This document shows, one piece after another, positions 1,446-62,222 of a DNA stretch of 64,000 nt; within the stretch, counting starts at the first letter, position 1, and the number at the start of each line of letters is the position of its first letter. The notes under the pieces were generated by a model that saw nothing but the letters and a program-made list of their open reading frames with translations, searched no databases and was not told where the DNA came from. Source of the DNA: Ulota crispa (Eukaryota > Streptophyta > Bryopsida > Orthotrichales > Orthotrichaceae); contig OY987247.1 of the NCBI GenBank assembly GCA_963920765.1, forward strand, positions 4,679,971 through 4,743,970, read 5' to 3'. The translations under genes and the position numbers were made by a program.

Positions 1446-4400
1446 TTAACCCTCTAACATCCATGGTCAATTCGTGGGGCGAGCAAGGCCTTTTTTGCAA
1501 TTTTGGGGGAAATGGGCTTAACAAATATTGAGAAGGCTAAGCAAAGATCCAACCGTACCGATGGGTTTAGAGTGCATGGGGTTACTGGTTAGCATCAAAA
1601 TCTGATCATTTTTCGCAATCCTAGGGTGGCATCTGTGTGTCCATATGAAATTCCGTAGAGATATGGCGGTTTAGCTACGGTCCCACAGCATATTTCTTTA
1701 CAACTTCTTCCTTTGGGTTCAGATTGGACCACGTAAGCGGTACTTTAGCGTCTTTACGGTCCCAATTGAGAACACGACGTCACAGGAACGCCATTGCGGA
1801 GCTCTCAATGAGTTCCTTCTTTGCGCACAGAGGACACCTCACAGGTTCAGCTAAACCTGAATTGCTTGGTGACAGGGTTTTAGGGTAACTCTGAAGCTAG
1901 GGTTTGGGAGAGCAGTTTTACAGTCTCTTGAGACGGCGAACCTCTACCAATGAGGCATACTTGACTAAACAAATGCAGCATGCTTCCGGTGCTATATCAA
2001 CTCGTATACCAACAACAACAACAACTACCGAAAGGACCTGTCCAGTGCCAACGTGTTGGTGTGCCAATCATAAACAGAAAAAGCAAAAACATATTGCGAG
2101 GACACAACAATCTTATCACCTTTCTTCAAGTGATCATGCACACAGAGATAGACATCAAAATACATGACTCATGGAGTAGCACAAAGAGAAATAGGGGTGC
2201 ACATAACTAAAGAAGGAGGGTACCCCCTTTCACGAGAGAGTTCAAATAAAAATTTCCAGTGCTGCCCTATTGAATTTGCAAATTTGGTATACTGCCATTC
2301 AGAATGGCGATTTCACCAAGCCATGGTTGGCACTACTAAATTCCTCGCATTTGTTGTGTTTAGAAGAGAGCAATGGCACAACATGCATACAACATGAAAA
2401 CAAAAACTAAACCCAAAATTGACTCCCTAGAAAATATGCTGACGGTGTAGGTCCTGCTTCCACTCCCGCATGTTGGCCGCAGCGCATCCACTCCTGGTCT
2501 TTGGCTGCAACAATGACATGATGAACTAGGCCCTGCAAAATAGAGTATCCGATGTTCAACTAACTGTTACAAACCAAATCTCTGAGCAAACGGAGACAAG
2601 CAACAACAAGCGTCAATTTCCCCAAGTGCCGAATTCAACACTGGCCAAAGCAATGATAGTACTAACTCACCGGTGAGCGATAGAAATTGCCGACACTGCT
2701 ACACCAAATGTCCCAGGGAGTGAAACAACTGGAAGCACTTGAACGTGCACAAACAAACCCTGTCACACTAGGGACAGATTGTGAAGGTCCTGCACTTGCA
2801 TATAGCACACACTCTGCGCAAAGCCGTCTTTTCAGGGATGTGGCAGACTACCGCTTCAAACAATGAAGGCGGGACGTTGCGTTTCCTTGGACCGCTTTGA
2901 TATGCACCAACACCTTGGTATTTGCCGTCCCATCAGCGCGAAAACAACACACAACTGAAAATCTTTATGGATCAAAGGTCTCTCCAGCAACCTCTTCAAA
3001 ATTTGCCTGTGAATTGTATACGCATTAGCAAGTGACGAGTCTAAGCACAAAAAGAATACACAATGCCACCACTTCTTGGTGGCTATCTGTGTACTGTAAT
3101 ATGATTGGGTCTGATCAGCAACATCAACTCCGCCCATCTTCTGCGAGTATAGAATTTGAATTGGCAATGTAGGGACTTCAACAATCCTCTGCCCTGACAC
3201 TCTGCTAGTTACAACTCCGCCTAGAACCATGGGATCAGCGATTGTGGCCAAGAAATACACCCCCTTTGTGTCTTGCCACAAAATTGCAGCCATCCTCCTA
3301 TCTTTGTGGACCCAGATGTGAAGTGTTCCGCGCGGTGGTTCTTGCACGTTGCCCAAGCTTGTGGAAAAGCCTTTCTGTTGCTTCCATGCGGTTCCAACAA
3401 CGTAGAACCCATGAGCAAGCAAGTCGTCAAATAGAAATGGAGAGGTAAAGAAGTTATCGCAAGTGACTATGTACCAATTTCCTTCAAGGCCAGCTGTCAA
3501 GCGATTCACTACCTGCCCTGCCATGCCTATGTGCCCTGGTGCTAAAGTTGGAAGATGGCCGTTGTCCTTCTCCACATAGATCTCCAACTTATAAACATAA
3601 CTAGTAACAGAACACGCCATCACCCAAATCTTGATGCCATGCGTGATTGGTTTGGCAGGAAGGTATTGCTTGAACAAACAAAAACAATTGTTGTAGGCCA
3701 CCATGCACTTGTCAACGGTCACATACGGGGATAGGTTCCAATAATGCTGAAATCTGCTCTCCACATGCTCCAAAATCCACCTGCACTTACCAATCGGGTC
3801 ATATCAAGGGTTCTCTTTATCAGTGACATAGGCAGACTTTGAAGTCATGTGCAAGCAACAAAGGATGTATTCAAACTGCCATCTAGACATGGTGCTCGCC
3901 ACCTCCTTGCAAAACAAAGCCCCATCACCTCTTTTCCAATAATCTCGAATAGCAGATTGCCTTCTAACACCCATGAGGCAACAGATACCGGTGAATTGTC
4001 TGAACTCCGCTAGTGTGATGGACTATGATGCAAAGCTGCCACCTTTCTGCTTCCTGGTCTTGGGATCAATAAACTCAGCATAACTGTTACTCTCCCGAAC
4101 TATTTTTTACTACAGCTCTTCATCCCAAAAGAGACCAAAATAGTCCACGGGCCCCAAAACAGTGTCTGCTAGGAGATGCTCGCTTGCACCAAGAGTCTTC
4201 CCCGTGAATGAGTGCCGACCTAAAAGAGACCATGTCCGGGCATGCCAATTTGCATCTACATACTTCTCATTCAAGTTGCACATCTGAAGTTTTGGTCCAG
4301 AACTGTAAACTCCCAGCTCGCCAAGTAAGGCCATGGGGTCGTCCTCTACCATATTGATGGAACTGGCTCCATTTGAAAATGCACCATGCTCACTTCCTAC

Positions 4401-7001
4401 ATTGGACAAGGCCGGGTCCCAATTGTGGTCAGAGTCACTGTTGGTCAACTCCCAGCCTCGTGCAGCAGCGTCCTCCACACTCCAATGCTGAGGGGTCTGT
4501 GGCATGCAATTGAAATGATCAGTCAGTTAGTCTTGAAGAGAACAAGCATTGAGTTGTTACTAGTAGTGTTGGGTACTTGGGTATGACTAATATAGACCAC
4601 AATAACAAAAAATTCATGTACAAAACGACTGGGGAAGCAACAAAGACCTCGTAGGTGTAGTCCTCACATTAAACAAAATGAATGAGAGCGGTTACAAGAA
4701 AATACCTGAATACCGGAGTTCTTCAAACCAGTGCATGGTGAAGCAAGCCATGTAGACTTTGGGGGTGCCAAATTTGTAGCTTTGATAGGGTCCTACCATG
4801 TAAAGAAAATGTTTATTTAGAACAGCTGAATTTGTACTATTCATGCAAGGTAACAGTTGGGCACTGCAAGCATATGGGAAAGGAGTGTGGAAGCAATTAC
4901 CTGTTGAAGTGGGACAGCGGATGGGAGTTGCGGACCAGGCGTTGGTATAGCCGGAATGAGCAATTCTGCCCTCTGTAAACAGCCAGCATCTGTATCACCA
5001 TAGTCTAGCTTCTCGCAAACACCATGCGGCAGGGATTGAATGCCCAAGTAATGCCCAAAGTCCACCTCAAGCAAGTCAACTCCATTTGATCCCACTTCAC
5101 CTCCCATAACAGTGCCAACAGCAAACAGACAAGGAACCGCAATTAGCTCTCCACCCCATAAAAGATTGCGGAGGAGGACACAAACTCGCGGCACTTCACC
5201 TGAACTTGCTCTTGTGACTGGTGGGAGTAAAGTGCTTGATTCATCTGGCATAGGCAGCATGTCCTCTTCTTGACTATGCATACTCGATGGCTCCACCAGT
5301 GGGACGCAACCCCTACCCCGCCCTATTCCTTGACCTTGCCCTGCTGTCGTAGCGCGCAAATTGCCAGGATCATTTGACGTTGCAGTTGGTTCCGTCTCTG
5401 CAGCACAAGATGCCGCATGTTGCCGACGGGTGTATTTTTTATTTTTTCTGGTGAAGATGGCTCCATTACAGCCCCTTCAACCTGCATGTCCCCAGATGGC
5501 AATTTGACCTTCCTCACATACTTACGCTTTGGCTTGACTCCAACGTCCTTGCTCGCCCCTTCAGCGTGCTTGTCCCCGGCTGGCACTTTCACCTTCTTCA
5601 CGTACTTGCGCTTCGGCTTCACTGCAACGTCCTTGCTACATGGTGCTTGTGGTAAATCCTTGTTACCCTCTCTGCCAACATGCCTCAGAAGGTGGGCAAC
5701 CGCATCGGGTTCTACGTGCGGTGACGAGAAGAGAGCGTCGCTCACAGCCCCTCCTTCAAGCACGTATGCTCTTCTTTCGTGAAAAACGTTTGCCGCATGT
5801 CCAACACCATGAATAACAACGTCACGGAAAGACAATTTCATGCAAGTGGACATGAAGCATTGCTGAGAAGCCATTGTCGCTTCCTTCTTCGCGTTTGGCC
5901 CTCCAACCCAAATGCCTTGCAGAGTGACAATAGAAGAGGTACCACAGTTATGCCCCACGCAAATTTTCCATCGAATCGTAACCTGCTGTACTAGCCGAAA
6001 ATGGATGTGACAGAAGGTACCTGCAATCAAGCAACCCCAGGAGGACTTCAAGCTTCTCGACGAGAAAATGCTGAGTCGTCGCCCAATTTTCCAAGATGGC
6101 ACTTGTGTGCAGAAATTGGGAAGGAGGAGGCAGGGGGCGTGGCCAAACATATCCATCGCAGCGCTGCCTTGATTGCGTTGATGTGGCGACCATATTCCCG
6201 TCCTTCAAGATGCTAGAACTACAGAGGATACGCCTTCAAATCTTGGCCATGAAACCCTTGCAGTTGTGTGACGGTTGTGGGCCTTCAATTCCTCACCCTA
6301 ATTGCAAGATTCCGTATGTTCAGAAGTAGGAAGAATCCGCCAGCGCTTCCAATTGAAACCATCTTACGCCTCTCAACGACTCTAAATGTGCAAACGATTT
6401 CCTGATCCTTCTATCCCAAGATTCAATGCAATTATCCTAAAAACGATTGCAAGGCTGAATGTGCAGATGCTTGTGGCATTGGGCATTTAGTCATGTCTAC
6501 AAAGAGAAATCTCGGTCGCAACTTCTTGCATTGCCTAGAATCAGAGACCGGGACGAGCTTCCCCCTTACGCATAGCGCCTCGGATTTGTGTTTCCCGCAA
6601 CCACTTCAAATTCCCGCCCTTGTTCTATACCCAGCAGAGGATGCGCAAGCAGATTTCAAACGTGAACGTACACATTCCCAAAGCCGGTTCCCAATCCCCC
6701 TTGGGATATGCTGACAGCGTCTAAACACCCAATCAACGCGTATAATTACTCAATCTTTATCGTATTGTACCATCTTTATCCAACATTTCCTATACTTTTT
6801 CCCGGTACCCCTCCATTCTTTCAATTCCCTTGACCACAAGGCACCCCTAAATTCAATGATCATTATCTCAGACCATGCATTGCTAATTTCCCCAGGCATG
6901 TCCTCTTTTTAAAAATCCCAAATTCCATACCATACTCTCCATATTACAAAAAAAGTGCCAAAATTGACCATGAAATGGCCAACCAGACGTTAGAGGGTTA
7001 A
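1446..7001 (-). mobile_element. piggyBac-type DNA transposon with TTAA target duplication
   Basis: A 5.56-kb element bounded by TTAA at 1446-1449 and 6998-7001. Its ends are inverted: CCCTCTAACATCCATGG on the left, and CCCTCTAACGTCTGG as the reverse complement of the right end. They share CCCTCTAAC and then TC, giving a 12-bp terminal repeat with one mismatch. A further subterminal motif CATGGTCAATT occurs near both ends (about 1463 and, inverted, about 6962). TTAA target sites and CCC-initial ends are the signature of the piggyBac superfamily. Inside, a spliced transposase gene on the minus strand retains the family DDD residues but has in-frame stops. The flanks form one continuous older foldback repeat, so the insertion and its TTAA duplication can be read directly. 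Base composition is richer in GC than the surrounding repeats. The element looks structurally whole but coding-dead. Confidence 0.93.
2700..6000 (-). pseudogene. piggyBac transposase gene (DDE_Tnp_1_7 type), decayed
   Basis: Cut-and-paste transposase of the piggyBac family. The main exon runs from 4496 down to about 2705. It contains the family's N-lobe pattern (FWDEEL, MGVRRQSAIRDYW), then VTVDKCM near 3720, TCDNFFTS near 3465 and MGGVDVADQ near 3125, which carry the three catalytic aspartates, then KKWW and LANAY. A Cys/His finger (CAICKC, FTICP, KCFQLFH) follows at 2700-2835 in a shifted frame. Upstream, splice junctions that keep frame join an exon ending at 4901, an exon 4792-4706 (29 codons) and the main exon at 4496, all phase 0. 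A likely 5' exon near 5480-5640 encodes two copies of a basic KPKRKYV(K/R)KVK motif that could bind DNA or direct nuclear import. Breaks: stops at 4112-4110, 4109-4107, 4025-4023 and 3806-3804, a frameshift before the finger, and a stop within it. It should not encode active transposase. The 5' end is uncertain. Confidence 0.9.
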
Positions 7002-7490
7002 GTAACACAATTATGATCAACTAAGAGTTCAATGTAGGGTGTGGTAGGACCAAAATTTGTAAAATAAAAACTTCAATTATTTAACTAACTTTTGTCTTAG
7101 TAAGCATATTGTCATGTTCAAAGGTACAAATATAGTCATAATATATGAGTCAAATAACAAAATTTGATTATCATGAAGAAACATCTATTTTATAAATTTT
7201 GGACATGTTCATCTCAACATTGAAATCATTATAAAAAGAATTTAGAAGCTTTTTTTGGAAATGCTTGTTAGAAGGGAAGATGTGCATTTGGATATTTCCT
7301 ACCTATCTATGCAATCAAATCTCAAAAAATCATTACCATTTTTTTAATCAATTATCATGTAAAACCATGAATTTCAATTAAATTAATTTACCAAAAATAA
7401 GATTTTGGTTTTTAATAATTAAAATTTGGTATGCTTGATTGGGATTGCATAAGAATCAAATACCAACAATATGAGAATAAATGCCATTTA
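7002..7490 (+). repeat. Foldback-family continuation after the piggyBac insertion
   Basis: This continues the repeat interrupted at 1446. It includes the centre of the palindrome and the whole right arm (GGACATGTTCATCTCAACAT near 7201, GCTTGATTGGGATTGCATAA near 7433). With 1206-1445 it makes a foldback of about 730 bp once the transposon is removed. Confidence 0.8.
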
Positions 7491-8551
7491 TATTGTTCAA
7501 TGCCAAAATGGGTCTACGTAACAATACTTCTGGGTACTATACATCTATGACGCCAATGAGAGAGTCAATTCACCCTGGCCAAGGAGGGCTGGGACAAGGA
7601 GGGTGAGAAGTCACCAGAAACTAAAACAATTGACGCAAAGCGCAGGTTTTCAGTATTATTCAAACAAGTGCTTTTTTTATTCATTCATTTTGAAGCCTGC
7701 AAAATGCTTGAGTGTCTCAAAATCTATCAAAATTTAGGTTCAGACCATAAAAGAATGGCTAAGCATAATCTCTCACATATTTGGTAGACATGATATGAAT
7801 AGACAAATGACTTTTCCAGTCACTTGGACAGATTTCCCTCAATTCCCCTCAAAAACACACACTCCTACATCACCAGAGCACACAACACTGCTCATTAACC
7901 CTTAAACGTCATTCCAACTATTTTGTGGCTTCTGAATGATTGAAAAGTGCTCTGACAGTGGAATAACATTGTTTTTCATCTAAGATTCTGTTGGAATATG
8001 AAGAATGCAATCTAGAGCATGTAGATAGATGGCTTTTGCATGCACTATGTTCACAAAAGGGTCCCACTTGCCAATTGAGTAGTAAAGATGCACCATAGTG
8101 TACTATATTTTGAATTTTGAGAATCTTTTTACCAAAACTCAATGAGTTATTAAAATCATGTGTTTTTAGTTTGAGCATAACAAGAATCTAGTTTCTCCTT
8201 GTACTTTAAGATTTTGAAAAAGTTTAAGTTTTGAAAATTTTATTATTGAGTATCTATTACCATGGAATAGTTACTTTTTCTAATTTTACCCATTGGAAGA
8301 AAAATTCCATCATGATGACCCGATAAAAAATTTGGCATAATTGAATACATATTATAATTAATATGCATTTCTTTAGCATTTGCTTCAAAATAATTACAAT
8401 AATTTCAAATTTTCCCCAAAATTTATGAACACTTTTTATACATATAGTATGCACATACCTTCTACTAAAATTATAACATTGAATTTTGATGTTGATTACA
8501 TGGCCAAAATAACTCCTAGAAGATAATTGCAATTCCATGGAATCCCATCCT
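7491..8551. other. Intergenic AT-rich stretch with an orphan TTAA end
   Basis: No gene is recognised. TTAACCCTTAAACGTC at 7895-7910 matches the left end of the 232-bp element at 30481-30712, but I cannot find a partner end before the next element at 8552. It may be a truncated copy. Sequence near 7515-7550 repeats a phrase at 1110-1140 (CTACGT(A/T)ACAATACTTCT). Confidence 0.5.
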
Positions 8552-9460
8552 TTAACCCTTTAATGACCACGCACATTTTCACAAAATCCACTGAAAACAG
8601 GGGCTATAAGCTTAGATTTGGAATTGACTTAAATATGGACCCATTTTCAATAATCCAACCGTACAAATGGGAAGTACACCTTACTTACTGTAAAGCACCA
8701 AAATTTTGGTTAAATCTACTGTTGGAGGTGAAATATTATAATGATTGAGTGAGCCATATGCAAAAAATCTCTTGTGTTTCATTCTTGTTTAGTTTCAAAT
8801 GTTAACCTTTCATGCAAGCTTTGATTGAGAAGAGCCTTACATTTCTAAAAAGCAAACTTTCCCACCTTTCCAACAAAACTAGTTTCACATAGAATAGACA
8901 AAAATAGCAATCACAAGGTGTAGCTAAGTGGACAAAAAGGGTCAAAAAACCCACTTTCTTTGCTACCCTAAAATGGTTCTACAAGAAATTTGATAACTAT
9001 TATGGAAAATCCAAAAGGTGAAAACAATCAAGAATTGGCCTTAAATGTAGGATGACAAATTTTAAAGCCAAAACAACATTTCAGTAGATTTTCAAATATT
9101 ACAATTATACTACTACCATATATGAAAACAATACAAGCATATTTCTTAAGCAATTTGAAATTTTTTTGAATTGTGCAATTGAAATATGATATTCTTCTTG
9201 CATACTTGATGTATTGTGTTGATACTTTGATCCATCTTTGACAAAAATTGAATACATATTTTGAAGCCACGCCATATAAACACCATTATTTATCAACTCA
9301 TATGCCCAATTGCATTGTTATTTTTTAAAATGGATGCAAAATTCTTGTGATCACATGTGTACTTCAAGACCAAATTCCAAATTATTGAGTGATTTCAACC
9401 TACAGGCCAAAAACCACTCCCAGCGACCAAAATATGGTCGCGTGGTCCTTAAAGGGTTAA
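8552..9460. mobile_element. TTAA-flanked non-autonomous element, 909 bp
   Basis: TTAA at 8552-8555 and 9457-9460 bracket ends reading CCCTTTAATGACCACGC (left) and CCCTTTAAGGACCACGC (reverse complement of right), a 17-bp inverted repeat with one difference. The interior is AT-rich with no meaningful coding frame. TTAA plus CCC-initial ends suggest mobilisation by a piggyBac-like transposase; that link is inferred. Confidence 0.8.
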
Positions 9461-10329
9461 AAAACATTACGTACACTTACTACAGAGAAAAAGTCCACGT
9501 GGCACTGCAACTGAACAACTCCAACAACATCCATAAGCCATATCCAAAGCCCATAGCCATATCCAAAGCCAAGTCTTACAATTCAAGCATGCATACCAAA
9601 ACATACTTCGGACAAAGCCACCTGCAGAGAGAGAGAGTAGAAGTACTGTTTTTTGTTTTTTTCTTAAGTTTCTAATATAAAAAAAAGGACAGCATTGAAG
9701 GAACCGAGCATGCTTTGTACAAGTGGAAGGAAAAACAAGACAGTCAAAACACACACACACAGCACAGGCAGGGCTGCTGCATCGTCAGACCCAACACTGA
9801 AGTTGATCCCTTCCTGCTTGCCACGAGCGGCGACTTCTCTGCTCTGCTCGAAATGGCAATTAACAAGGCCTGCCAGCGGAATGGCCACCAGTCGATGTCG
9901 ACCCAAAGAATTGTCCTCCTCGTTGGGGGCTGGAACGGCAGAAAAGGCACTCAGGCTCCGTGGAACTGGCTTGCGATTGCGGTGTGCTATTCTCCCAAAC
10001 TGGTGAACCTTTCTGTCTGTCTCTGTCTGTCTGTCTCTCCCGTCAGCGTTGTTGCCTGCAAAAGTGATAACTTACGGATTGTTGAGTGAGGTGAAACAAT
10101 GCCTTACGGATTGTTGATGTTCGGGATGCAGAAAAAAGGGGCTCCCGAGTCGAGCCTGGCTAAGAAACGCAACCACTCGCAGTCGCCAGTCAATCATCTG
10201 CACGTCATCACCGCTGTGAAGCAGGTGTTGCTATGACATGCACCGTTTCGGCAAACCACGTCTGGGTCTCCACCCCCCACTCACTCGCACCAATTGCTTG
10301 TTGCTAGCAAAGCAAAAGGTCGACGCTCT
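9461..10329. other. 3' flank of the receptor kinase gene
   Basis: No separate gene is recognised. The GC content rises towards the receptor-kinase stop codon at 10330. It contains short CA and TCTG simple repeats (about 9752-9763 and 10010-10040). Part of it is probably the 3' untranslated region of the minus-strand kinase gene; no polyadenylation site was assigned. Confidence 0.5.
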
Positions 10330-13300
10330 CTAAGGCTTCTTCTCCTCGGAAACACGCTCCTCTTGCTGCTCTTGCTGCTGCCTATCTAACACAGGCTCCC
10401 TCTGCTGCTTATCCAACACAGCCTCCTCCTGCGGCTTGTCCGCAACCCACTCCTCCTGCTCTATACCCAAATCAGGCTCCTCCTGTAGCTTACCAGAAAC
10501 CCCCTCCTCCTGTAGCTTATCAGAAACCCACTCCTCCTGCAGCTGGTTATACTCACGCTCCTCTTGCGGCTTATCAAAGACCGGCTCCTGCGTATCAAAG
10601 ATCGGTTCCTGCTTACCAGAGACCGGCTCCAGCTTATCAGAAGGCGGATTTTCAACAGCAGGCTTCGCTAGAAGGGCAGGCTCGGGCAGTTCCGAGATGG
10701 AATCCACGAGGACGGTGTCGCGGGTGACGGCGCCGACGGTGAGAAGCTCGTCCTCGGCCACGTCAGCGGCCACGTCGGCGGCGGGCACCGGGGAGGAGAC
10801 GTCTTCGAGGGAGCGGGCGTCGATGGAGTGGCGGTACTTGCGGGTGCTGGCCTCCATGAGCATGCGCACCACCTCGCGCATGGTGGGCCGGAGGGCGGGC
10901 TCGCTCTTGATGCAGAAGAAGGCCACCTTGAGGACGAGCACCATCTCCTCGATGACCACGGCGTCCGACAAGTCCAGGCGGGTGTCGAACACGGCGCTCA
11001 CGGACTTGTGCGTGCGCACCGCCTCCTGCACCCACGTCACCAGATCCCCCGCTTCCTCCTCCCTCGGCTGGATTGGCCGCCTCCCCGTCAGCAGCTCCAG
11101 CAGCACCACGCCGAAGCTATAGATGTCCGACTTCTCCGTCACGTTCATCGTATACGTGTACTCTGCACCGCCACAATAAGGTAGGAGCACCCATAAGCAA
11201 CGCTGTCCCCATAACCATCAGCTCTGAAATCTTGGAAAATCTTTGGAAGTAAATAGATGTAGTGACAAGGATGTACAACATGTGAACATGAAATATTGAT
11301 AGTGGTTGTGGGTACAATGGCAGTTTGCTCTTTAAAAATTCACAACTTATTCTCACAGTATCCAAATAGTACATTCAAAATTGCGAACTCATTATTTTTC
11401 TGTTCCTAATAGGATCCTATAATTTGCTAGCTGTTTATTAATACTCATCATGTTCAAAACCCTTAGATTGACGCTTATGGGTGCTCCTATCTTACCCCCC
11501 AGAGAAAAATTCACCACTTGGCTTCCTTCAATTCACGAAACCAATACATTCGAGCAGAAAACTGCCCCAAACAGAAAAAATGGTGCTTATATTTGAAATA
11601 AGGGAAATTTTTCTTGGATACCCTTGAAATTTGCAATATTTTCATAGATGCCCTTGCTTTCTCAGAAAGATCACAAATACTCTTGGGCCAAAAAAAATTG
11701 GCGCTTGTTTTGTTGTGCATGTCACTTCCCTTCTTCCTTTGTGCGCACACTATTTCTTTCTCGTTATGCGTGCGCACAAAGGAAGAAGGGAAGTGGCTTG
11801 CACAACAAAACGAACACCTAAATTTTTTGATGCCCCAAACAGAAAATAAGGGTTCTTAATATGAAATAAGGGAAAAATTTCTTGGATACCCTTGAAGTTT
11901 GCAATATTTTCATAGATGCCCTTGCTTTCTCAGAAATATCACAAATACCCTTGGACCAAAAAATTTAGGCATTTGTTTTGTTATGCATTCACTTCTTTCT
12001 CCTTTTGTGCGCACATTACTTCTTTCTTGTTATGTGTGCACACAAAGGAAGAAGGAAGAAGGGAAGAGACATGCACAACAAAACAAACCTCTAAAATTTT
12101 TGGTCCAAGGTTATTTGTGATATTTCTGAAAAAGCAGGGGTATCTGTGAAAATACTGCAAACTTCAGGGGTATCCATAAAATTCTCCCTTTGAACTAATG
12201 ACACTATCAATCTCCGTCGCAAATGGATCTTTGCAATGTGTTTAGGATCTGCTTTAATTACCTCAAGCACAAACTGAACATGCAAAGGCTACGAAGGTTA
12301 TTAGAAAAGTAAAGACATGAAGTTCCAAGACGGTCAGGGGTATCCATCAAATTTTCCGGATGTAATAAGCATCTTGTTGTAGAAAGAGAGTTAGCACAGA
12401 ATGGGACGATGAGGTGGTGGGGGGTGATGAGTGAATACCAGGTGCAATGTAGCCGAAGGACCCAGCGACGACAGACATGCACTTGGAGTCGCCCAAGTCG
12501 AAAAGCTTCGCCAAGCCGAAGTCACCAACATGCGCCTCATAGTGATCATCCAGAAGAATGTTGTTGGACTTGATGTCGCGATGGACGATGAGCGGCTTGC
12601 AATCATGGTGCAAATACTCCAGGCCTTCAGCGGAACCCAAAGCGATCTTATACCGCAGATCCCAATCAAGCTCGCAGTCGTCCTTGAGCAAGTGCTCACC
12701 CAAGCTGCCCTTAGGCATGTAATCATACATGAGCAGGTTATAACCCTGGTGAGAGCAGAACCCCATGAGCTTGACAATATTGCGGTGCCGGATCTTCCCG
12801 AGCGTCATGATCTCCGCGGTGAAGCTGTCGTACTGCGCCATCCCCGAGTCCAGATTGCTGATCATCTTCTTCACAGCAATAAGCTGCCCAGACGGCATAC
12901 GCGCCTTGTACACTCGCCCGCACGCGCCGAACCCGATCACCACGTCTTCGCTGAAGTTGTCGGTAGCCACCAGGATGTCGTTCAGCGTCACGCCCGACCG
13001 GGGGAGAAAATTCACGTCCTCCATCTCCTTGTCGGTGGCGCCGTGCACGGGCGCCGCGGGGCGGCGGCAGAACCAGCACGCGCCAACGAGGATGACGATG
13101 AGCGCGCACACGACCACGACGGCGATGATCCCGACCAACGCGCCGGGCGACACCGACGAGTCTTGCCACGTGGGCGGCACCGGCGCCGGCATCGTCCCCG
13201 TGGACGGACACAGCGTCGGCAGCGGTGCGCCGCACACCGACGTGTTGTCGAAGCTGCTCTCGTTCAGACGCAGAAACAATCCCCCTTCGGGTACCTGCCC

Positions 13301-15394
13301 GGAGAGCGGGTTGTTCGACACGTCGAAGAAGACGATGCTATTGAGATTCGCCAACGACGCCGGGATCTGTCCGGTTAGTCGATTGGACGACAAATCCAAT
13401 ACCTGAAGCATGTTGAGCTCCCCCAGTTCATCGGGAATGCGCCCGATGAGCGCGTTGTTGCTGAGGTTTAACCCGTATTTTAACATCTCGATCTCCCCTA
13501 ACGATGCCGGCACGTATCCGGAGAAGTTGTTCCCGCCCAAATGCAGGTTCCGCAAACCCGCGCACCCCACGAGCGTGTCCGGGATGGCGCCCTCCAACTG
13601 ATTCTCCGCAACGATGATCTCCGACGCCCAGGATAAGTTCCCGAACTCTATGGGCAACCCGCCCGTGAAGGCGTTGAAGCTCAGGTCGAGCAGTTGGAGA
13701 GACGTGCAGTTGCTAATTTCCGGCGGGATGGACCCGCGGAGACGATTCCCGGAGACGTTCAAGTAGACAAGCGGCAGCTGGCCGATCTCCATGGGCAACC
13801 CGCCGGAGAACATGTTGTTCGCGATTGATAGCACCTGCAGCTGCGAGAACAAGCTGATCTCTCTCGGGATTGCACCACTGAAGCTGTTGCTCCGAATCTC
13901 CAGCTTCTGAAGCTGCCGAAGCGCCAACACGTCGGATAGAACCTCCCCCATCATAAGATTCCCCTCCACGTCCAGGTACTGCAACGACTGACACCTGCGC
14001 AATCCCTGCGGGAATGTCCCCGTCAATTGATTAAACGCCAGATGCAGCATCGACAGCCCGCCGTTTGCGCACACCTGCGGGGGGATGCTCCCCGTGAGAT
14101 TGTTCTGGGAGAGCTCCAAGATGGTGAGGTTGCTCAGCGTCCCCAGCAACGGCGGTATCACCCCCGTCAAGTTGTTGCTGAACATCTGCAGGCGTGCAAG
14201 GTTCGGCGAATCTTGGAACGACGTGGGAAGAGAACCTGTGAGCATGTTCAGCGAGAGGTCGATGAAGGTTAGGTTCGGAGCGAACCCTGCAATGTCTGGA
14301 ATCTCCCCGGTTAATCGATTCTCGAACAGATGCAAGAGCTGTAAATTCGGCAACCGGAAGAGGCTCGCCGGTATTCCGCCCGTTAAATAATTCTCCGACA
14401 GGTCGATCTCCACGGCTGAGGTTAGGTTTCCGAGGCTGTCCGGTATAATCCCCGTGAAGTTGTTCGCGTAGATGTACAGCATCTTCAGGGATGTTAGGGC
14501 TCCAAGCTCAGCGGGGATGGTGCCCTCCAGCAAGTTTCGGTAGAGCGCGAGCAGGTTCAAGGACTGGAGATTGCCAAGCGAAGGCGGAATGGAGCCCACG
14601 AAGAAGTTGTCCCAGAGCACTACCGCCGTGAGGTTCGTCATTTGGCCGAGAATCGCCGGTATAGGCCCCGTCATCTTGTTCTGCGCCAGCCCGAGGAACT
14701 GCAAACTCACACATCCCACAATTTCAAGCGGGATCGGTCCCTCGATCTGATTCTGCCCGATTCGCAGCGTTTCCAACTGCGTCAGCCTCCCGAGCGACGG
14801 TGGCAATATCCCGCTCAGGTTATTCGTGTACCCCAGAAACTCCACAAGCGACGTCATCCGGCCAATTTGCGGAGGAATGGGACCTCGGAGCAAGTTGTTC
14901 ATGATCAACAGATGCTGCAACAAGCGTAACCTCCCAATCTCCGCAGGAATGTTGCCCGTCAGCCTGTTCGCGCTTAAATCCAGAATGACTAGCCGCGACA
15001 ACATCCCGATGCCGGGCGGAATCTCCCCGGTTAATCCATTGCCGGAAATGTTCAAGTAACGAAGCGCGGCGAGCTTGCTAATGCTCGGCGAAATGGTGCC
15101 CGTGAGGTTACAGTTGCTGAGATCCACGTCCCAGACGCGCCCCTGCGCACTCGCGCAGTACACCCCCGTCCACTCGCACGGGAACGCGTCCGTGACGTCC
15201 CAGTCCAGAAGCGCCCCATCCGGGTCACCCAAGCTCTCCTTCACCTCCAGCAACGCCACTCCATCGGCCGACAACCCCAGCACGGGTTGCTGCTGCTGGT
15301 GCAACACCAACACCACTACCACTACCACAGGTAGCCACCACCACCCCCACCGCTGCTGCCCCTTCTCCCCCATGGCTACTCCCAACACTACCAA
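10330..15394 (-). CDS. LRR receptor-like serine/threonine kinase (At2g33170/At1g17230-like)
   Basis: Membrane receptor kinase in two exons: 15394-12439 and 11162-10330. The intron 12438-11163 begins GT, ends AG and splits the Glu codon of the GYIAPE motif, a common place for the single intron of plant LRR-XI-type kinases. The product is 1262 residues. In order: hydrophobic signal peptide (residues 1-42), an N-cap with paired Cys (PCEWTGVYC), 26 tandem 24-residue LRRs of the LxxLxLxxNxLxGxIP type, a second Cys pair (VCGAPLPTLC), one membrane segment (about 751-774), then the kinase. The kinase has the GFGACG loop (about 821), AVKK Lys (about 842), HRD (938-940) and DFG (958), so it looks catalytically competent and RD-type. 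After the kinase comes an unusual tail of about 170 residues, ending in Glu/Gln-rich repeats. The Met at 15373 (GCCATGG context) is an equally good start, seven residues shorter. The extracellular ligand cannot be told from sequence. Confidence 0.95.
10335..10640 (-). repeat. Degenerate 30-bp coding repeats in the kinase C-terminal tail
   Basis: About nine to ten degenerate units of roughly 30 bp encode phrases such as SDKLQEEGVSGKLQEEP and DKPQEEAVLDKQQREPV. The tail is acidic and Gln-rich with no known domain, and is probably disordered. It keeps frame and ends at a single stop at 10330, which argues that it is translated rather than an accidental extension. Confidence 0.8.
11601..11835. 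repeat. Foldback repeat in kinase intron, partial copy
   Basis: About 80% similar to the left and central part of 11869-12189, including the internal palindrome of GTGCGCACAC and TGCGTGCGCAC around 11740-11780. It lacks the right arm. Confidence 0.7.
11869..12189. repeat. Foldback MITE in kinase intron, full copy
   Basis: Left arm starts AGGGAAAAATTTCTTGGATA. The right arm ends in the inverse (GGGTATCCATAAAATTCTCC). Arms of about 130 bp flank a smaller hairpin (TTTGTGCGCACATT, GTGTGCACACAAAG). A fragment with the same right-arm phrase GGGGTATCCATCAAATTTTCC-like sequence lies at about 12340-12358. No target duplication was settled. Confidence 0.75.
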
Positions 15395-16144
15395 ACGCCC
15401 ATCCTCTCATGCTATGCAATCAACCACATAGCCACCACTCGCTTGCTACTCCGCACCCCAACCACCACCCCCCTGTACCCTAACCCTCTCACCCCGAATG
15501 CCCTCTCTTCCGTCACCATCTCAGCACCAACACCGCGTTCCTCCTCCACGCTCTGCTCTGTCTCTATCTCTCACCGCCATCTCGGCGCGAGCTTCGAATG
15601 CTCTACTCCGCCATCACCGTCTCAGCAATGCTCCCATCCCGCCAACCTGGACTGAACTCGAGGAGTAACAAAGTGAACAAACTAAGTTAGTGATCGCTGA
15701 CCGATTCTTCGCCGTTGCGTTGTCGCGAATTTGAGCGCCACGCTTGACAGAGCGGAAGGAGGTAGCAGTACCGACGGTGACGGTGGTGCGAATCCTGGCG
15801 CTGCCGCAGGCCGTGATCGTCTGGTATCGCGGCGTCTTCTTCTGAGCCATCGCCATGATGGAGAAGGGCGAGCGACGACGGTGCGAGACGCAGTGGGCTG
15901 GCAGCAGGGGAACGAGGACGGGACGGGGACGGGCCGGGGACAAGACGGGGACGGGGGCGGGTGGGGCGCGGGTGGGGGGTGGCCTGGGTTTCCGTGTAGG
16001 TGAGCGAGGGAAGTGCGGAGTTAAGGGGTTGATGCCCGGCGGTGCTCGACTATGCCGGGTCCGGGTTGATGCCCGGTGTGGCGGTTTGGGGAATCATGGG
16101 CGCGGTTGCCGGGATAGGGGCTATCGCGGTTGGCTAATTTGCTG
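15395..16144. other. 5' flank of the receptor kinase gene
   Basis: GC-rich sequence upstream of the minus-strand kinase start with TC-rich tracts on the plus strand near 15470-15620 and G-rich tracts at 15880-16090. It presumably includes 5' untranslated sequence and promoter. No separate gene is convincing; small frames here are compositional. Confidence 0.5.
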
Positions 16145-17208: not shown

Positions 17209-17862
17209 TTAACCCCTAAATGCCCAAGGCCTTTCTGAACTTCTTGGCATTTTCAAGAAAGTGAACAATCAACCAACCTTTTCATAAATCTCATCAAGTT
17301 TTTTTAAACTATAACCATACAAATTTAAACTTGACATGTTAGGGATTACATGGACAAAGAAAACACAACAATATCACTTATAGTTTGAAAGATTATAACG
17401 TTTGAACATGAGGGTGTTAAAATTGCAAAAGTGACTTGAAGTTTTCTAATCCTCATTTCACATGTCAAATCTAAAAAGTTGGTTATCAAAAAGATATGAG
17501 GTTTAAGGTCATATCATGTTTAACCTCAACCAATTTACGGCTTTCAAGATCTACTCCTATATATTTTTTAAACGGATTTCTAATGCAGATTTTTCTCCAA
17601 CCTCTAGTGTATTTGAGGCTCATTTTCAAGATCTTCCAACACTAGAATACTCAAGATTGCAATGGACACCTTTGTACAAAATATTGAATAGAAAAATCAT
17701 GAACATTCATTTTCAAAATTGGATTTTTGATAATGAAAATAGACTTCAAAACAAACTTGTGTTCAAAAAGAAAATACCAAAAATAGTGATTCGATAAGAT
17801 TTTATTTGTCTTCAAAGTTTTGCAAACACCCAAATTGGGTGTCTTGGGCACTTAGGGGTTAA
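17209..17862. mobile_element. TTAA-flanked element, 650-bp family, copy 1
   Basis: TTAA at 17209-17212 and 17859-17862; ends CCCCTAAATGCCCAAGGC and, inverted, CCCCTAAGTGCCCAAGAC (16 of 18 match). The interior matches 34879-35533 throughout, for example in the phrases GTTTGA(A/T)CATGAGGGTGTTA and AATGGACACC(T/C)TTG. Non-autonomous; piggyBac-like by its target site and ends. Confidence 0.85.
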
Positions 17863-19679: not shown

Positions 19680-20780
19680 CTAACCCTTAAACATAGTACA
19701 GTCGCGTACCGACCACTAACAAATTGCTAATATGATCCAGCGAGCTTTTTTGTTAAAACATGGAATATAATCGGTTCGTTTTGGTAGGAAAAATTATCAT
19801 TGCATCCTTATGCCAAATAAAGTAAGTATACCAAATTTCAGTTCCTAAAAACCAAAAATCCATTTTTGATGAATTGTTTTGTAAGAAATTTATGGTTTTA
19901 CATGATAATTTATTGAATAATATTGATGATGAATTTTTGAGATTTAATTCCATGGACATGTAGGAAACATCCATATGCGCATCTTCCATGCCAAAACTAC
20001 CCCCTTAAGTAACAAAAATTTTACCAACAAAAGACTCAATGAAACTGTGATAGGTCCAAATTTTGTAAAATATATATTATTTTTTTAACTATATTTTCAT
20101 CAAGTAACCAAAACATGATGTTTAGCGATTCAAACTCAATTATGGTATTTGAGTCAAACAACAAATTTTGCTTTTCATAAAAAAAATATGTAATTTATAA
20201 AATTTGGGCCTATCACAATTTCATTGAGTTTTTTGCTTGTAAAGTTTTTGTTACTTAAGGGGGTAGTTTTGGCATGGAAGATGCGCATCTAGATGTTTCC
20301 TACATGTCCATGGAATTAAATCTCAAAAATTCATCACCAATATTATTCAATAAATTATCATGTAAAACCATAAATTTCTTACAAAACAATTCATCAAAAA
20401 TGGATTTTTGGTTTTTAGGAACTGAAATTTGGTATACTTGCTTTATTTTGCATAAGGATGCAATGATAAATTTTCCTACCAAAATGGACTGATTATACTC
20501 CATGTTTTAACAAAAAAGCTCGCTAGATCATACTAGCAATTCGTTAGTGGTTGGTAATTTAGCTGTACATAGTGTATTACAATATATTTTTCTCGTATTT
20601 GGAATGCATCCACACCTCTACAACATTTGAGATCAACAAAGAAGTTAGAATATAGATCAATGTTGTTCTAGTGAGCTAGTCAAGATCCTAGATGAAAACC
20701 TTTTGTTGTTAGCAAATGCTAGTTATACAGCAGCAGCGTACATACTATGTACTATGGTTATTTGATTGTTTAAGGGTTAA
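19680..20780. mobile_element. 235-bp TTAA element split by a foldback insertion
   Basis: The right part 20570-20780 matches the 234-bp element at 61463-61696 (GGAATGCATCCACACCTCTAC, GAGATCAACAAAGAAGTTAGA) and ends with the TTAA at 20777-20780 preceded by TTTAAGGG. The left end at 19680 reads CTAACCCTTAAAC, with TTAA changed to CTAA. An 848-bp palindrome (19708-20555) sits inside. Confidence 0.75.
19708..20555. repeat. Intact 848-bp palindromic foldback element
   Basis: Ends ACCGACCACTAAC and its inverse GTTAGTGGTTGGT. The two arms, each about 400 bp, are inverted copies with few differences, centred near 20130. Both arms carry the same start-like phrase (ATGGAAGATGCGCAT), so a frame of about 75 codons appears on both strands; I judge it a by-product of the palindrome. 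Transcribed, this would make a very long hairpin. Confidence 0.85.
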
Positions 20781-28896: not shown

Positions 28897-29935
28897 TTAA
28901 CCCCTAAATGCCCAAGGCATTAGATTGTGATGTCCGAAAAATTTCAGGAAACTTTGAAACCTTGTTGAGAGCACAGATTTTATTGTTTTCAAGTTTTTTT
29001 TTGGAAAAGTTGCGTGCTGAAGTTAGCTTCACCGTTCAAATTCAACTTCCTCCATATCTTATTCCATTTGTTTTTGATGGAAGGTTAACTACAAGCATAC
29101 ATTTTCTCTCATGAATAGTATCGTGAATAGTGTCATGAATAGTGTTGTGAATAGTGTCATGAATAGTGTCGTGAATAATGTCATGAATAGTGTCGTGAAT
29201 AGTGTCGTGAATAGTGTCATGAATAGTGTCGTGAATAGTGTCGTGAATAGTGTCATGAATAGTGTCATAGAGCCTATGAGAAGTTGCCACATTGAAAAGA
29301 TGGGCATCAAGTTGGGCAAAAGGTGAAGATTTCCCTTGGGCACTCCCTTGGGCAACAAGGCCTTTTTATTGAAATTTTGACATCTAACAAAATCTAAAAG
29401 TGCTTTTGGACTAATTTCACTTGGAATGTCTTTTGTTATAGAAATTAGGATCCTTTCACTGTTGAATTTTCTTTCATTCATAATAATTCTTGGTCAATAA
29501 TTGAGGTTGAAATTTTCTTTGTATTATACGGTTGCATTTTGATAGTTGCTCTGCAAGCTCATTTGAGAATTTTGTGGTCATGGATTTGGAAGAGGGGCCA
29601 TTGATTTTGAAGTAATAACAATAAACACTAAAGCATCCTAAGTGGTTGTTTCCCTATTTTGTATCTAAAAGTTACCAATTTGCATCAAAAGTTTCGAGCA
29701 GCTCCAAAAAAAGCAAAAAAATCCATACTCATCATCATTCAATCTCAAATATCTTCAAATCCACACGGCCATTTCAAATTCTTTTTAGGTAGTGCCATCT
29801 AAAAATCTTGAAGTTTAAGATTCAACGATTACAATTTTATTTTGATTTTTAATAATGATCTTACAAATACAATTCAAAAACCTTCAAAACTACCTTCTGA
29901 AAACGAGAAAACACCCCTAGGCATTTAGGGCTTAA
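28897..29935. mobile_element. TTAA-flanked element, about 1-kb family, copy 1
   Basis: TTAA at 28897-28900 and 29932-29935; ends CCCCTAAATGCCCAAGG and, inverted, GCCCTAAATGCCTAGGG. It matches 51862-52662 in its right half (GTGGTCATGGATTTGGAA, GTGGTTGTTTCCCTATTTTG). The tandem array at 29113-29270 lies inside and is absent from the other copy. Confidence 0.8.
29113..29270. repeat. 12-bp tandem array (GTGAATAGTGTC)
   Basis: About 13 units alternating GTGAATAGTGTC and ATGAATAGTGTC. A repeat peptide can be read in several frames on both strands because the unit is four codons long; not taken as a gene. Confidence 0.95.
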
Positions 29936-30480: not shown

Positions 30481-30712
30481 TTAACCCTTAAACGTCGGGA
30501 AGGCCCTCTCTAGCCGTATGTATCTATATGTATACGACAAATTCGAGAGGGTTTGAGATGGAATTAGGGGTCACTATGTAAATGGAAGTGGTCTCTCATG
30601 CAAAGGCTCTTTCAAAGCGATCTTTGGCGGCACAAAATACACAGAGGAATGTTTGGAAATTTTTAGAATACAATGCCGTATCCTAGGAGCTTGACAAGCG
30701 TTCAAGGGTTAA
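30481..30712. mobile_element. TTAA-flanked MITE, 232 bp
   Basis: TTAA at 30481-30484 and 30709-30712; ends CCCTTAAACGTCGGG and, inverted, CCCTTGAACGCTTG. It is close in size to the 61463-61696 element, but the interiors differ. Confidence 0.75.
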
Positions 30713-33384: not shown

Positions 33385-34320
33385 TTAACCCCTAAAGGAC
33401 CATTGCCCCTTCAGGGGACATGTTGGACTTTGGGCATGTACCTATGGCTAAACTACTTTGTGTGATTTTTTGAAACTTTTAGTGAAGGTGGGGAATTCAA
33501 AGATTGATGTGTGTATCAAATTTTTTCTTCATTCCAACATTTGACAAAGAAGTTATGCATGAATTTATGAAAATTTGGAGAGGATTGCCAACCCAGGCAG
33601 CCTAAAAACTTCTTTAAAATTTACATTTTTTTAAATTAAAATTTGAAATTGGTTCTTTAGATTTTTGTATAGGTGAGAAGTTTTGAATCATTCATTTTCA
33701 ATCAATGACAAGAAAGTTATGAGGAGTTTTTGTTTGCGGGCAGTTCTAGATTCTCTACTCTAAAATAAACTTTGAAATCCTTTAGTTTACTCAATTTTCA
33801 ATATTTTGGAACAAAAATTAAACCAAAAAAAGAAAATTGTTTATCACAACATTATAACTGTTGGGATTTGCAATTTTCGTTTCAATAATGAAATTCATAA
33901 CAATTTAGTGTTTTGAATCATTCTCTACTTCTTTTTACTTACTGATTTTCCCATGTGTTGTATAGTTCTAATTGATTTGAAAATTCTCCCACACATACCT
34001 AACTTGATCTTCTACATGGAAAAAAAAAGCGCAACTTTGGGTAGAGCTATTGTTTTGTTATAAGATTAGACAAAGGCTTCTGAAATTTTTGGGCAACATG
34101 GAAAAGATATTTTTTTTTCACTTTAAATGTAAATATCTCACTCTTCTCCATTTGGAATGAGCTGATTTTTTTCCCGCAAGTACCTCTTCTAGCCTGGGGC
34201 AAGATCCTATGGTTGAATTTCCCAAAAACAAAACATAAAATCTTTCTTTACTAAACCTCCTAGAAGTGGCAATTTTTAGTGAGTTTCATAGAAAAAAGGA
34301 CGCGGTCCTTTAGGGGTTAA
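33385..34320 (+). mobile_element. TTAA-flanked element, 930-bp family, copy 1
   Basis: TTAA at 33385-33388 and 34317-34320; ends CCCCTAAAGGACCATTG and, inverted, CCCCTAAAGGACCGCG (13 bp perfect). It matches 44247-45173 end to end in inverse orientation (for example GAAGTTATGCATGAAT near 33549). It ends two bases before the next palindromic MITE. Confidence 0.88.
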
Positions 34321-34878: not shown

Positions 34879-35533
34879 TTTAACCCCTCAATGCCCCTGG
34901 AATTTTGGAGTATCTCAAAATTTGCTTGAAAATGAACAAAATTCTGGCATTTTGATCAATCTTATCAACTTTTTTAAAAATGTAACCATTCAAATTCAAA
35001 GTAGACATGTTATAGATTGCATACAAAAAGAAATCACAACTATATCACTTATGGATTGAAAGATTATAATGTTTGATCATGAGGGTGTTAAAACTGCAAA
35101 AGTGATTTGAAGTCTTTCAATCCTCTTTTTGCATCTCAAACCTAAATTGAGGGTACCAAAAAAATATGAGTATGTAAAGTACAACATGCATAACCCCAAT
35201 CAATTTACGACTTCTCAAAATCTATTCTATAATTTTTTTTAAAATGAATTTTTAATGCGATTTTTTCTCCAAGTTCTAGTGTACTTGAGGCTCATTTCCA
35301 AGAGCCTTCAACACTAGAAAGTGAAGATTTGCAATGGACACCCTTGCACAAAATCTTGAATAGACAAATCATGTTGATTCATTTTCAAGATCAAACTCTT
35401 GATGCTGAAATTAGACTTCAACAAAAATTTAGACACAATAATAACCACAAAGAAAATCTTGAAAAAACTTTGGGAATCCTTGAACAAAATTCAGAGGGGT
35501 GGAATTTCAACCCCTCAAGCGTTGAGGGGTTAA
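34879..35533. mobile_element. TTAA-flanked element, 650-bp family, copy 2
   Basis: TTAA at 34879-34882 and 35530-35533; ends CCCCTCAATGCCCC and, inverted, CCCCTCAACGC. Homologous to 17209-17862 along its length. Confidence 0.85.
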
Positions 35534-37336: not shown

Positions 37337-38222
37337 TTAACCCCTAAAATTATTTTGTGTTTAGAGGCCCAAAACTGCTTCAAAATACTAGTCCCTTTAG
37401 CAAGGTCAAAATCTTCATTGAAACTTACTTTTTAACAAATCCAATTGTAGGATCCTTTGGTTAACTTGCACACATTCATTGTCCCAAAATTTCAAAATGA
37501 GCATCCCCACCAATTGCAAGATCAATGTGCCTAGACTTCAAAATGTAGGCTTTTCTAGTCCTCCTAAAAGGTGAAGTTTTGTTTTTCAAAAAAATTAGAG
37601 AAAAATATATATGTTGTATTTCTTGTGCAATTTTGGCAATATGTTGGAAAATGGGTTAAAAGCATACATAATTTTTTTAACCAAAATAAAGTTTGGATTC
37701 ATTTTTACAAAAATTGTAAAGTGAAAGGTATTGATGAATGAAAGATATAACTAATATGCTAATAAGTTTTGGAAGAATTTGAAAATTGTTGATCCCAATG
37801 GTGAGAATGCTCCAACAGACAATTAGTAACTTTCATTTTCATTTTCATTTGAAAATTTTCAAATTTGAGAGTAAAAGATAACTTTATATGATTTTTCTAC
37901 CCTCTTCCTACCTTCATTGCCTGCAAAATAAAAGTCCTTTTAACTCTCACTTCATTATTTCAAATTGAGTGATTCAATTTTTTTTGAGTAGGAATTAATC
38001 TATACAATTATATAAATAAATAAATAAATAAATAGATAAATAAACAAAATAATTAGAATATAATTTTTGTTACCCGGTTTGACATTGAAATTGAAAAAAC
38101 CTTATAACTTTTGCATTACTTATTGGAAGGACATGAAATAAAGCTGTACATGTAGATTATCATGAGTAGCATCTATCCTAAAAATTTCATGAAAATTTTC
38201 CAAATTATGAAGTCAATAGAGC
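37337..38222 (-). mobile_element. Truncated TTAA element, inverted twin of 39877-40816
   Basis: Starts with the TTAA at 37337-37340 and CCCCTAAAATTATTTTG and is the reverse complement of about 40816-39930 with only a few differences. The distal end is missing: at 38223 sequence returns to the host GGGTAAAA repeat, which also lies on the left side (37215-37336). Confidence 0.85.
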
Positions 38223-39742
38223 CATGCACTAAACATTTGTCCTTGTTTACAAAACACTCCCTTGCAGCAAAGCGTTTTTGTTCAATATCCATAGAATTTT
38301 TTACCCACACAGTAAAAGGAATGTCACAATTTTTAACGCAAAAATAAACTATTTATTTTCTACCAACACAAATATTTACCCACATAGTAGAATTTTTATG
38401 CAGTTTTTCTATATATTTTTATTTCTTACGGACACAATTTTGTTGTATTTTTTATTATTTACCTTAGAGTTTTTTACACACACTATTTTTTACCCATACA
38501 TTTTTTCCTCATGCAAGTTTTAACCTACGCTGATTTTTGTCTATGCAAGTTTCTTATCAAGGTAAGCTATTTTGTGAGCGTAGAACTGTGAGCCTATGAG
38601 GCGGTGAGCCAAGATTTTGTGAGCAAGAATCAATTTTGAGCTCAAAATTAATGGAAAAACTTAAAAAAACAATAAATTTCAAGAGATGAATGTTTATAAT
38701 GTGCAATTATAAGGTCCTATGTTCACATTTATAGATAAAATTTAATATTTTGACAAAAAAAATTATGCTCACTACTCACGGCTCATGAATCCATGCTCAC
38801 NNNNNNNNNNNNNNNNNNNNNNNNNNNNNNNNNNNNNNNNNNNNNNNNNNNNNNNNNNNNNNNNNNNNNNNNNNNNNNNNNNNNNNNNNNNNNNNNNNNN
38901 NNNNNNNNNNNNNNNNNNNNNNNNNNNNNNNNNNNNNNNNNNNNNNNNNNNNNNNNNNNNNNNNNNNNNNNNNNNNNNNNNNNNNNNNNNNNNNNNNNNN
39001 ATATAATTTTTGTTACCCGGTTTGACATTGAAATTGAAAAAACCTTATAACTTTTGCATTACTTATTGGAAGGACATGAAATAAAGCTGTACATGTAGAT
39101 TATCATGAGTAGCATCTATCCTAAAAATTTCATGAAAATTTTCCAAATTATGAAGTCAATAGAGCCATGCACTAAACATTTGTCCTTGTTTACAAAACAC
39201 TCCCTTGCAGCAAAGCGTTTTTGTTCAATATCCATAGAATTTTTTACCCACACAGTAAAAGGAATGTCACAATTTTTAACGCAAAAATAAACTATTTATT
39301 TTCTACCAACACAAATATTTACCCACATAGTAGAATTTTTATGCAGTTTTTCTATATATTTTTATTTCTTACGGACACAATTTTGTTGTATTTTTTATTA
39401 TTTACCTTAGAGTTTTTTACACACACTATTTTTTACCCATACATTTTTTCCTCATGCAAGTTTTAACCTACGCTGATTTTTGTCTATGCAAGTTTCTTAT
39501 CAAGGTAAGCTATTTTGTGAGCGTAGAACTGTGAGCCTATGAGCGGTGAGCCAAGATTTTGTGAGCAAGAATCAATTTTGAGCTCAAAATTAATGGAAAA
39601 ACTTAAAAAACAATAAATTTTCAAGAGATGAATGTTTATAATGTGCAATTATAAGGTCCTATGTTCACATTTATAGATAAAATTTAATATTTTGACAAAA
39701 AAAATTATGCTCACTACTCACGGCTCATGAATCCATGCTCAC
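38058..39742 (+). repeat. 742-bp direct duplication around an N gap
   Basis: 38058-38800 and 39001-39742 are the same sequence, differing only in homopolymer lengths (GGCGG against GCGG, A7 against A6, TTT against TTTT). The first copy ends exactly where the Ns begin, and the second starts exactly where they end. This is probably an assembly overlap that was not merged. Confidence 0.9.
38801..39000. other. 200-base assembly gap
   Basis: Exactly 200 unknown bases. Apparent reading frames through it are meaningless. Confidence 1.
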
Positions 39743-39876
39743 GGTATATCATTCCCCGTTTCTTATCCAAGCAAGTTTTTATCCATACATGTTTATTTAC
39801 CCACATTGTAAAAAGATTGCAGTATAAGGATCGCCAAATGGGTATATTGTATTCTATTATACAGATAGATTTGAAT

Positions 39877-62220: not shown

Positions 62221-62222
62221 CA

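Follow-up and report, generated by a model that had tools for sequence, protein, structure and literature searches.

A decayed piggyBac-superfamily transposon and its TTAA-bounded neighbours in a stretch of the Ulota crispa genome

We analyzed a window of 64,000 bases (64 kb) from Ulota crispa (contig OY987247.1; all coordinates are positions within this window). TTAA flanks the interval 1446-7001 at either end; the interval has a terminal inverted repeat (TIR) and asymmetric subterminal repeats and encodes a DDE transposase domain, and an unoccupied paralogous site lies elsewhere in the window. The explanation that best accounts for the whole, to which we assign a probability of roughly 0.83, is that this interval is a formerly autonomous transposon of the piggyBac superfamily, resident in a land plant's nuclear genome and now dead, and that sister lineages would have mobilized a set of short elements around it.

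Ends, empty site and transposase domain

A passage of PMC2872659 gives the hallmarks of piggyBac elements as a TIR of 12-19 bp with a CC[C/T]T terminus and a duplication of the target TTAA. The TIR of 1446-7001 begins with CCCT, is 12 bp long and matches at 11 of 12 positions between the two ends; TTAA lies on both sides of the element, and a single TTAA lies in the paralogous empty site. Inward of the TIRs, we found an 11-bp motif whose exact sequence occurs only twice in the 64 kb, once inside each end and at unequal distances from it (Table 1). A first-pass annotation, made from the letters alone, had pointed to TTAA duplications, a 12-bp inverted repeat and a subterminal motif near both ends, and all three hold. 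The unequal placement resembles that in moth piggyBac, the ends of which carry identical, asymmetrically positioned 19-bp palindromes (part of PMC11707139) rather than an 11-bp repeat at 0 and 13 nt.

The flanks of the element, joined with one TTAA, align to 19799-20459 in a single BLAST alignment (71.5% over 674 nt, E=3e-88), as well as to the other arm of that palindromic repeat (656 nt, 68.6%). The sequence across the join is ACCCCC-TTAA-GTAACA in the unoccupied copy and ACCTCC-TTAA...TTAA-GTAACA in the occupied one. Two other matches that span the join lack the TTAA (47944-48317; 77-216, loose scoring only). Because loose scoring returned 'spanning' matches for 23 of 25 random joins, we base the empty site solely on BLAST and the base-level alignment. 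The unoccupied repeat is a large palindrome (19707-20556) with 378-nt arms that are 94% complementary, and a related copy of it forms the flanks of the piggyBac element. On a plain reading of these sequences, the element would have jumped into a repeat resident in this genome.

The transposase is encoded on the minus strand. There, an uninterrupted open reading frame (ORF) at 2859-3803 matches the Pfam family DDE_Tnp_1_7 (PF13843) with E=5.5e-44, and translation of the catalytic exon with X at its stop codons extends the match to profile positions 2-349 of 349 (E=2.3e-64). The relatives of this domain in the PDB are piggyBac of the moth Trichoplusia ni (6x67/6x68; E=1.5e-24) and piggyBat of the bat Myotis lucifugus (9c0f; E=2.8e-23), which have the same core and are each 26% identical to it within the domain; for the main exon alone, the top match is piggyBat (E=4.8e-15). 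Two more PDB matches (E 0.32 and 0.4) hit an unrelated yeast protein at chance level. The first-pass annotation suggested that the element may represent a distinct plant lineage of the superfamily; the relatives found for its transposase amount to these moth and bat proteins. Four aspartate codons (3713-3711, 3458-3456, 3125-3123 and 3116-3114) align with D268, D346, D447 and D450 of moth piggyBac, which we take to be its catalytic residues, in agreement with the three catalytic aspartate motifs noted earlier. The likeness to the moth element includes the DDE_Tnp_1_7 core, these aspartates, the TTAA target and the asymmetric inner repeat. By contrast, the low domain identity, the shorter inner repeats, two putative introns, a plant host and the dead state of the copy set the element apart.

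A C-terminal Cys/His finger had likewise been proposed. Its cross-brace pattern, CxxC...CxxC...LCxxxCFxxFH, is recognizable by eye, but the candidate finger scores only 9 bits with the Pfam profile zf-Tnp_2 against a cut-off of 24, and it lies in a shifted frame with one stop. For the main exon, a single-sequence AlphaFold model reached a mean predicted local distance difference test score (pLDDT) of 36.7, and the model was not used.

These parts are consistent with the following mechanism. In the intact ancestor, a spliced transcript would have given rise to the transposase. By analogy with the ends of moth piggyBac, whose finger binds a repeated motif there (part of PMC8086355), the Cys/His finger would probably have recognized its binding sites in the 11-bp subterminal repeats, which lie 0 and 13 nt from the TIRs. 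The aspartate-based DDE core would have cut at the TIRs, at the element's ends, and joined the element into TTAA sites. Sister piggyBac lineages, and perhaps this one too, may have mobilized the roughly ten TTAA-bounded non-coding elements around it whose ends resemble CCCYTNAANGNC.

Short TTAA-bounded elements in the window

We searched the window for TTAA sites bounding 12-bp inverted repeats with at most 2 mismatches, 80-6000 bp apart, where the repeat must not extend outward and no letters were demanded after the TTAA. The 374 sites yielded 17 pairs, 15 of which have a left end starting with CC or CT. In sixty dinucleotide shuffles, the average was 3.1 pairs (maximum 8), or 0.17 (maximum 2) if only CC or CT starts are counted, and none of the 49 pairs from control sites (TATA, 3 pairs from 357 sites; AATT, 32 from 882; ATAT, 14 from 466) starts in this way. 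The 15 pairs, alternative pairings included, resolve into ten non-overlapping elements, the coding element among them; a weaker eleventh, at 30481-30712, comes from pairing by eye. TTAA thus flanks a TIR pair in nine short elements and the weaker tenth, and its status there as a duplication is putative. The word TTAACCC[CT]TNA occurs 26 times, whereas 200 shuffles averaged 0.5 and never exceeded 3; TTAACCC without the extension is found 36 times, against 10.3 on average and at most 18 after shuffling. Counting both strands, CCC follows TTAA in 36 of 748 cases, which ranks first among 4-mers made of A and T only.

Over the 22 ends of the eleven elements, position 3 is always C and position 7 always A, G occupies position 10 in 19 ends and C position 12 in 17, so that the coding element and the others have a loose position-by-position consensus in common. 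The ends of the short families lie near CCCYTNAANGNC. The presence of about ten further non-coding TTAA-bounded elements with such ends is far above chance. Together, the eleven intervals cover 15,101 of 64,000 bases (23.6%), with the tandem pair, 1446-7001 and the gap-containing interval all counted; 6,065 bases remain when the coding element and the gap interval are subtracted. Some are related to each other: 33385-34320 and 44247-45173 agree at 85-86% in their longest stretches, 17209-17862 and 34880-35533 at 76% over 284 nt, and the units at 61232-61696 match 20578-20732 at 80-85%. Among the empty-site searches for the other elements, only that for 34880-35533 was informative: its joined flanks match paralogous repeats without the element, but the TTAA is not kept there. 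Pfam gave no match for the two ORFs scanned in or partly over short elements (29092-29493 and 9280-9672).

We consider it fairly probable, although not proven, that the short elements are of piggyBac type; that they were mobilized by exactly the coding family of 1446-7001 is much less so. Along with the weak finger score, several observations weigh against the reading that we prefer. The AATT control exceeds TTAA in raw pairs (32 from its 882 sites versus 17 from 374), and among all 4-mers TTAA ranks only fourth for CCC following it. Of the 20 short-element ends, 13 begin with CCCC, 5 with CCCT, and one each with GCCC and CTCC; most therefore do not fit the literal CC[C/T]T, and the 13 CCCC starts led us to lower the odds for a piggyBac type. 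Positions 4-6 read TCT in the coding element and CTA in most others. The short elements share with the coding element neither interior sequence (E 0.01), nor the 11-bp CATGGTCAATT, nor identical ends. The window contains no second transposase copy with which the family could be compared. Finally, no relative of the transposase was confirmed in IMG/VR, GTDB, phages or plasmids, none of which is a plant collection: single-sequence and profile scans, which depend on exact short peptide patterns, gave 0 and 153 pattern matches in IMG/VR and 9 and 36 in GTDB genomes, none confirmed by tblastn, and tblastn of plasmids and of phages gave no match.

The short elements could instead belong to another superfamily that duplicates TTAA, Kolobok or Sola, in which case a single stray piggyBac would sit among an unrelated swarm. 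Sola produces a 4-bp, TTAA-like duplication. The window lacks a coding copy of the short families, whose members have no stop-free stretch longer than 134 aa, and the predominance of CCCC over the literal CC[C/T]T also speaks for this alternative. Kolobok likewise duplicates TTAA, but is described in part of PMC9587614 as having 5'-RR termini, and 21 of the 22 tabulated ends (coding element included) begin with C. Moreover, the ends here resemble those of the coral TTAA-bounded miniature inverted-repeat transposable elements (MITEs) CCCTTTAAGCCCTA and CCCCTCAGTGTCCG, which a passage of PMC2872659 counts as fitting piggyBac, the CCCCT end included. We regard an origin from Kolobok or Sola as conceivable, if rather doubtful. 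For the piggyBac reading, the coral elements (CMITEs and AmiPB of Acropora) described in that passage provide a comparison: they share the TTAA duplication, CCCT or CCCC ends, an arrangement in tandem arrays (here at 61232-61696) and several families with related ends. Unlike the elements here (232-1,039 bp, with one of 3.5 kb, and mostly unrelated interiors), those in corals are about 100 bp long and have conserved interiors.

Some observations concern individual elements. The interval 37337-40816 contains a gap of 200 N (38801-39000), and the sequence from 39001 repeats that from 38058 (300 nt, 100%); two contig ends seem to overlap there unmerged. A long-TIR element of recent origin may lie here, or the interval may owe part of its structure to the assembly. 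Unpaired TTAACCC[CT]T ends occur at 7895, 20780, 22955, 25448, 36220, 39877 and 49275 and are perhaps truncated elements of the same kind. By eye, the ends at 7895 and 30481 (CCCTTAAACGTC) are nearest to the right end of the coding element (10/12). Two tandem arrays with 11- and 12-bp units (60935-61019 and 29112-29266, the second inside a TTAA-bounded element) share the word TGAATAGTG, and an 8-bp tandem repeat, ACATCAAG, runs through 62220-62513 in 36.8 copies. A scan of the window against Rfam gave no match at gathering scores.

Table 1. Positions of the coding element, its parts, the related empty site and the other TTAA-bounded intervals.
Feature	Position	Strand	Remarks
piggyBac element	1446-7001		5,556 bp; transposase on minus strand
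Left TTAA target-site copy	1446-1449		
Left TIR CCCTCTAACATC	1450-1461	+	
Subterminal motif CATGGTCAATT	1462-1472	+	0 nt from left TIR
Cys/His-rich finger, C-terminal	2720-2845	-	shifted frame; stop at 2770-2768; below Pfam cut-off
Exon 3, DDE_Tnp_1_7 catalytic domain	2928-4496	-	Asp codons start at 3713, 3458, 3125, 3116
Intron 2 (putative)	4497-4705	-	GTATTT...CCACAG; 209 nt; phase 0
Exon 2	4706-4792	-	87 nt
Intron 1 (putative)	4793-4900	-	GTAATT...TGGTAG; 108 nt; phase 0
Exon 1	4901-5476	-	open part in frame joining exon 2
84-nt tandem duplication	5471-5637	-	codes two KPKRKYV motifs; N-terminal part of transposase
Subterminal motif CATGGTCAATT	6962-6972	-	13 nt inward of right TIR
Right TIR CCCTCTAACGTC	6986-6997	-	11/12 vs left TIR
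Right TTAA target-site copy	6998-7001		
Related empty site (host-repeat copy without element)	19799-20459	+	TTAA intact at 20005-20008; also 20255-20258 in other palindrome arm
TTAA-bounded non-coding element	8552-9460		TIR 11/12 (15/16)
TTAA-bounded non-coding element	17209-17862		TIR 11/12 (15/16)
TTAA-bounded non-coding element	28897-29935		TIR 11/12; right end GCCC
Weaker TTAA-bounded element	30481-30712		TIR 9/12; paired by eye
TTAA-bounded non-coding element	33385-34320		TIR 12/12; related to 44247-45173
TTAA-bounded element	34880-35533		TIR 10/12; related to 17209-17862
TTAA-bounded interval	37337-40816		886-nt inverted arms (883/886); contains assembly gap
TTAA-bounded non-coding element	44247-45173		TIR 11/12; left end CTCC
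TTAA-bounded element	46969-47217		249 bp; TIR 10/12
Two head-to-tail units	61232-61696		left ends 61232, 61463; second unit 234 bp

Gene structure, decay and host of the element

Removal of two candidate introns from the transposase gene leaves a single open frame that runs from exon 1 via exon 2 into exon 3, up to the first stop. Both candidates, 4900-4793 and 4705-4497, have GT-AG junctions in phase 0, and the first-pass annotation had read at least two introns with in-phase GT-AG junctions in the gene; they are richer in A+T than the exons (0.62 versus 0.52) and in T (0.35 and 0.38 versus 0.27). Two GT-AG introns that would have been spliced fit both the frame and the base composition. The two basic KPKRKYV motifs described earlier for the N-terminus are also present, within the 84-nt tandem duplication. 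The apparent introns could have arisen by decay or insertion, or the GT-AG pairs could be fortuitous in a gene that is broken, given that further frame changes occur elsewhere in the transposase gene and that the length of intron 1 is divisible by three. This alternative is unlikely: it leaves to coincidence that both junctions are in phase 0 and jointly restore one frame from exon 1 to exon 3, as well as the excess of T and A+T in both candidates.

The copy at 1446-7001 is dead. Four in-frame stops interrupt the catalytic exon (4112-4110, 4109-4107, 4025-4023 and 3806-3804), so the copy cannot make the protein, and a fifth (2770-2768) lies in the Cys/His finger. In addition, the frame shifts twice, once between the catalytic exon and the finger and once where the KPKRKYV part meets exon 1; either shift may reflect an indel or an intron that went unrecognized. 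The earlier description of the element as complete-looking is not borne out: its transposase is broken, even if the structure is whole. Five stops in about 950 codons correspond to some 0.04 random substitutions per site, a rough figure that assumes uniform change, and decay thus looks moderate. The ratio of observed to expected CpG is 0.59 in the element. It falls to 0.16 in 7002-9000, a stretch that takes in part of a short element, and to about 0.26 in the two short elements for which it was determined, and stands at 1.05 in a nearby receptor kinase gene. These values would fit an insertion younger than the surrounding repeats, with base composition as a confounder. An active copy whose stops and frame changes are sequencing errors is quite improbable. 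Long-read errors are common at runs of A, one frame change lies near such runs, and the assembly has a poorly joined gap elsewhere; nevertheless, errors would have to account for every one of the five in-frame stops, including the four in the catalytic exon.

On its right, the element is followed by a leucine-rich repeat (LRR) receptor kinase that lies at 10336-15406 on the minus strand and comprises two ORFs; its nearest PDB sequence is GSO1, which we take to be an Arabidopsis protein. The long exon of this gene has a G+C content at third codon positions (GC3) of 0.776 and a CpG ratio of 1.05, in a window with 37% G+C overall. Beyond the 200-N gap, at about 54.5-58.6 kb, lie exons of a BSK gene (GC3 0.505), of which the two ORFs searched are closest to At5g41260, presumably a BSK gene itself. 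The claim that a piggyBac element resides in a plant is thereby sustained, by the DDE_Tnp_1_7 match and the plant-type LRR kinase, with the BSK exons lying farther off. A source in an animal or fungal contaminant that the assembler joined to plant DNA might be suspected, since piggyBac is best known from animals and the element has a G+C content of 0.467 against 0.313 in the right flank (7002-9000). However, both flanks are halves of one resident repeat, and no gap separates the element from the plant-type LRR kinase. Because the joined flanks match an unoccupied copy of this repeat that has one intact TTAA at the exact join, contamination appears very unlikely. A domesticated, PGBD-like host gene derived from piggyBac would explain the retention of the catalytic aspartates and much of the reading frame, yet is hardly credible for a sequence with TTAA, both TIRs and both subterminal repeats in place and a protein broken by five stops.

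piggyBac in plants

The mere presence of piggyBac in plants is not new, because earlier statements and tables place it there: piggyBac-like elements in plants are mentioned in passing in parts of PMC8086355 and PMC10813416, and a table in PMC4438587 of superfamilies found across all groups studied places piggyBac in plants. Bouallegue et al. 2017 is cited in a passage of PMC8086355 as a large survey of piggyBac-like elements. In the fern Ceratopteris richardii, a repeat table lists 1,230 hits under the label piggyBac (PMC6890710); like the element here it concerns a land plant, but it is an annotation count over 122,417 bp, and the table passage gives no structure, ends or transposase. Among the matches listed from the open literature, no title or opening of an abstract reports a native piggyBac element from a land plant. 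A passage of a 2008 paper counts only five cut-and-paste superfamilies as described in plants, and piggyBac is not one of them (PMC2528002). A census of MITEs published in 2025, covering 207 plant genomes, assigns them to five superfamilies and one special group, and the terms 'piggyBac' and 'TTAA' are both absent from its main text (PMC12550479).

The look-alike ends near 1446-7001 suggest that piggyBac was once busy in this plant lineage. That piggyBac is a major overlooked superfamily there, with an intron-bearing autonomous family and amplified non-autonomous families that make up about a quarter of the window, has in our view slightly better than even odds. If the TTAA-bounded elements described here are of piggyBac type, censuses such as that of 2025 would overlook an entire superfamily or file it wrongly. 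A natural piggyBac element in a plant bears on the route by which the superfamily entered plants. Moth piggyBac is used in rice (part of PMC10905368), and ends and transposases adapted to plants would be of interest to its users.

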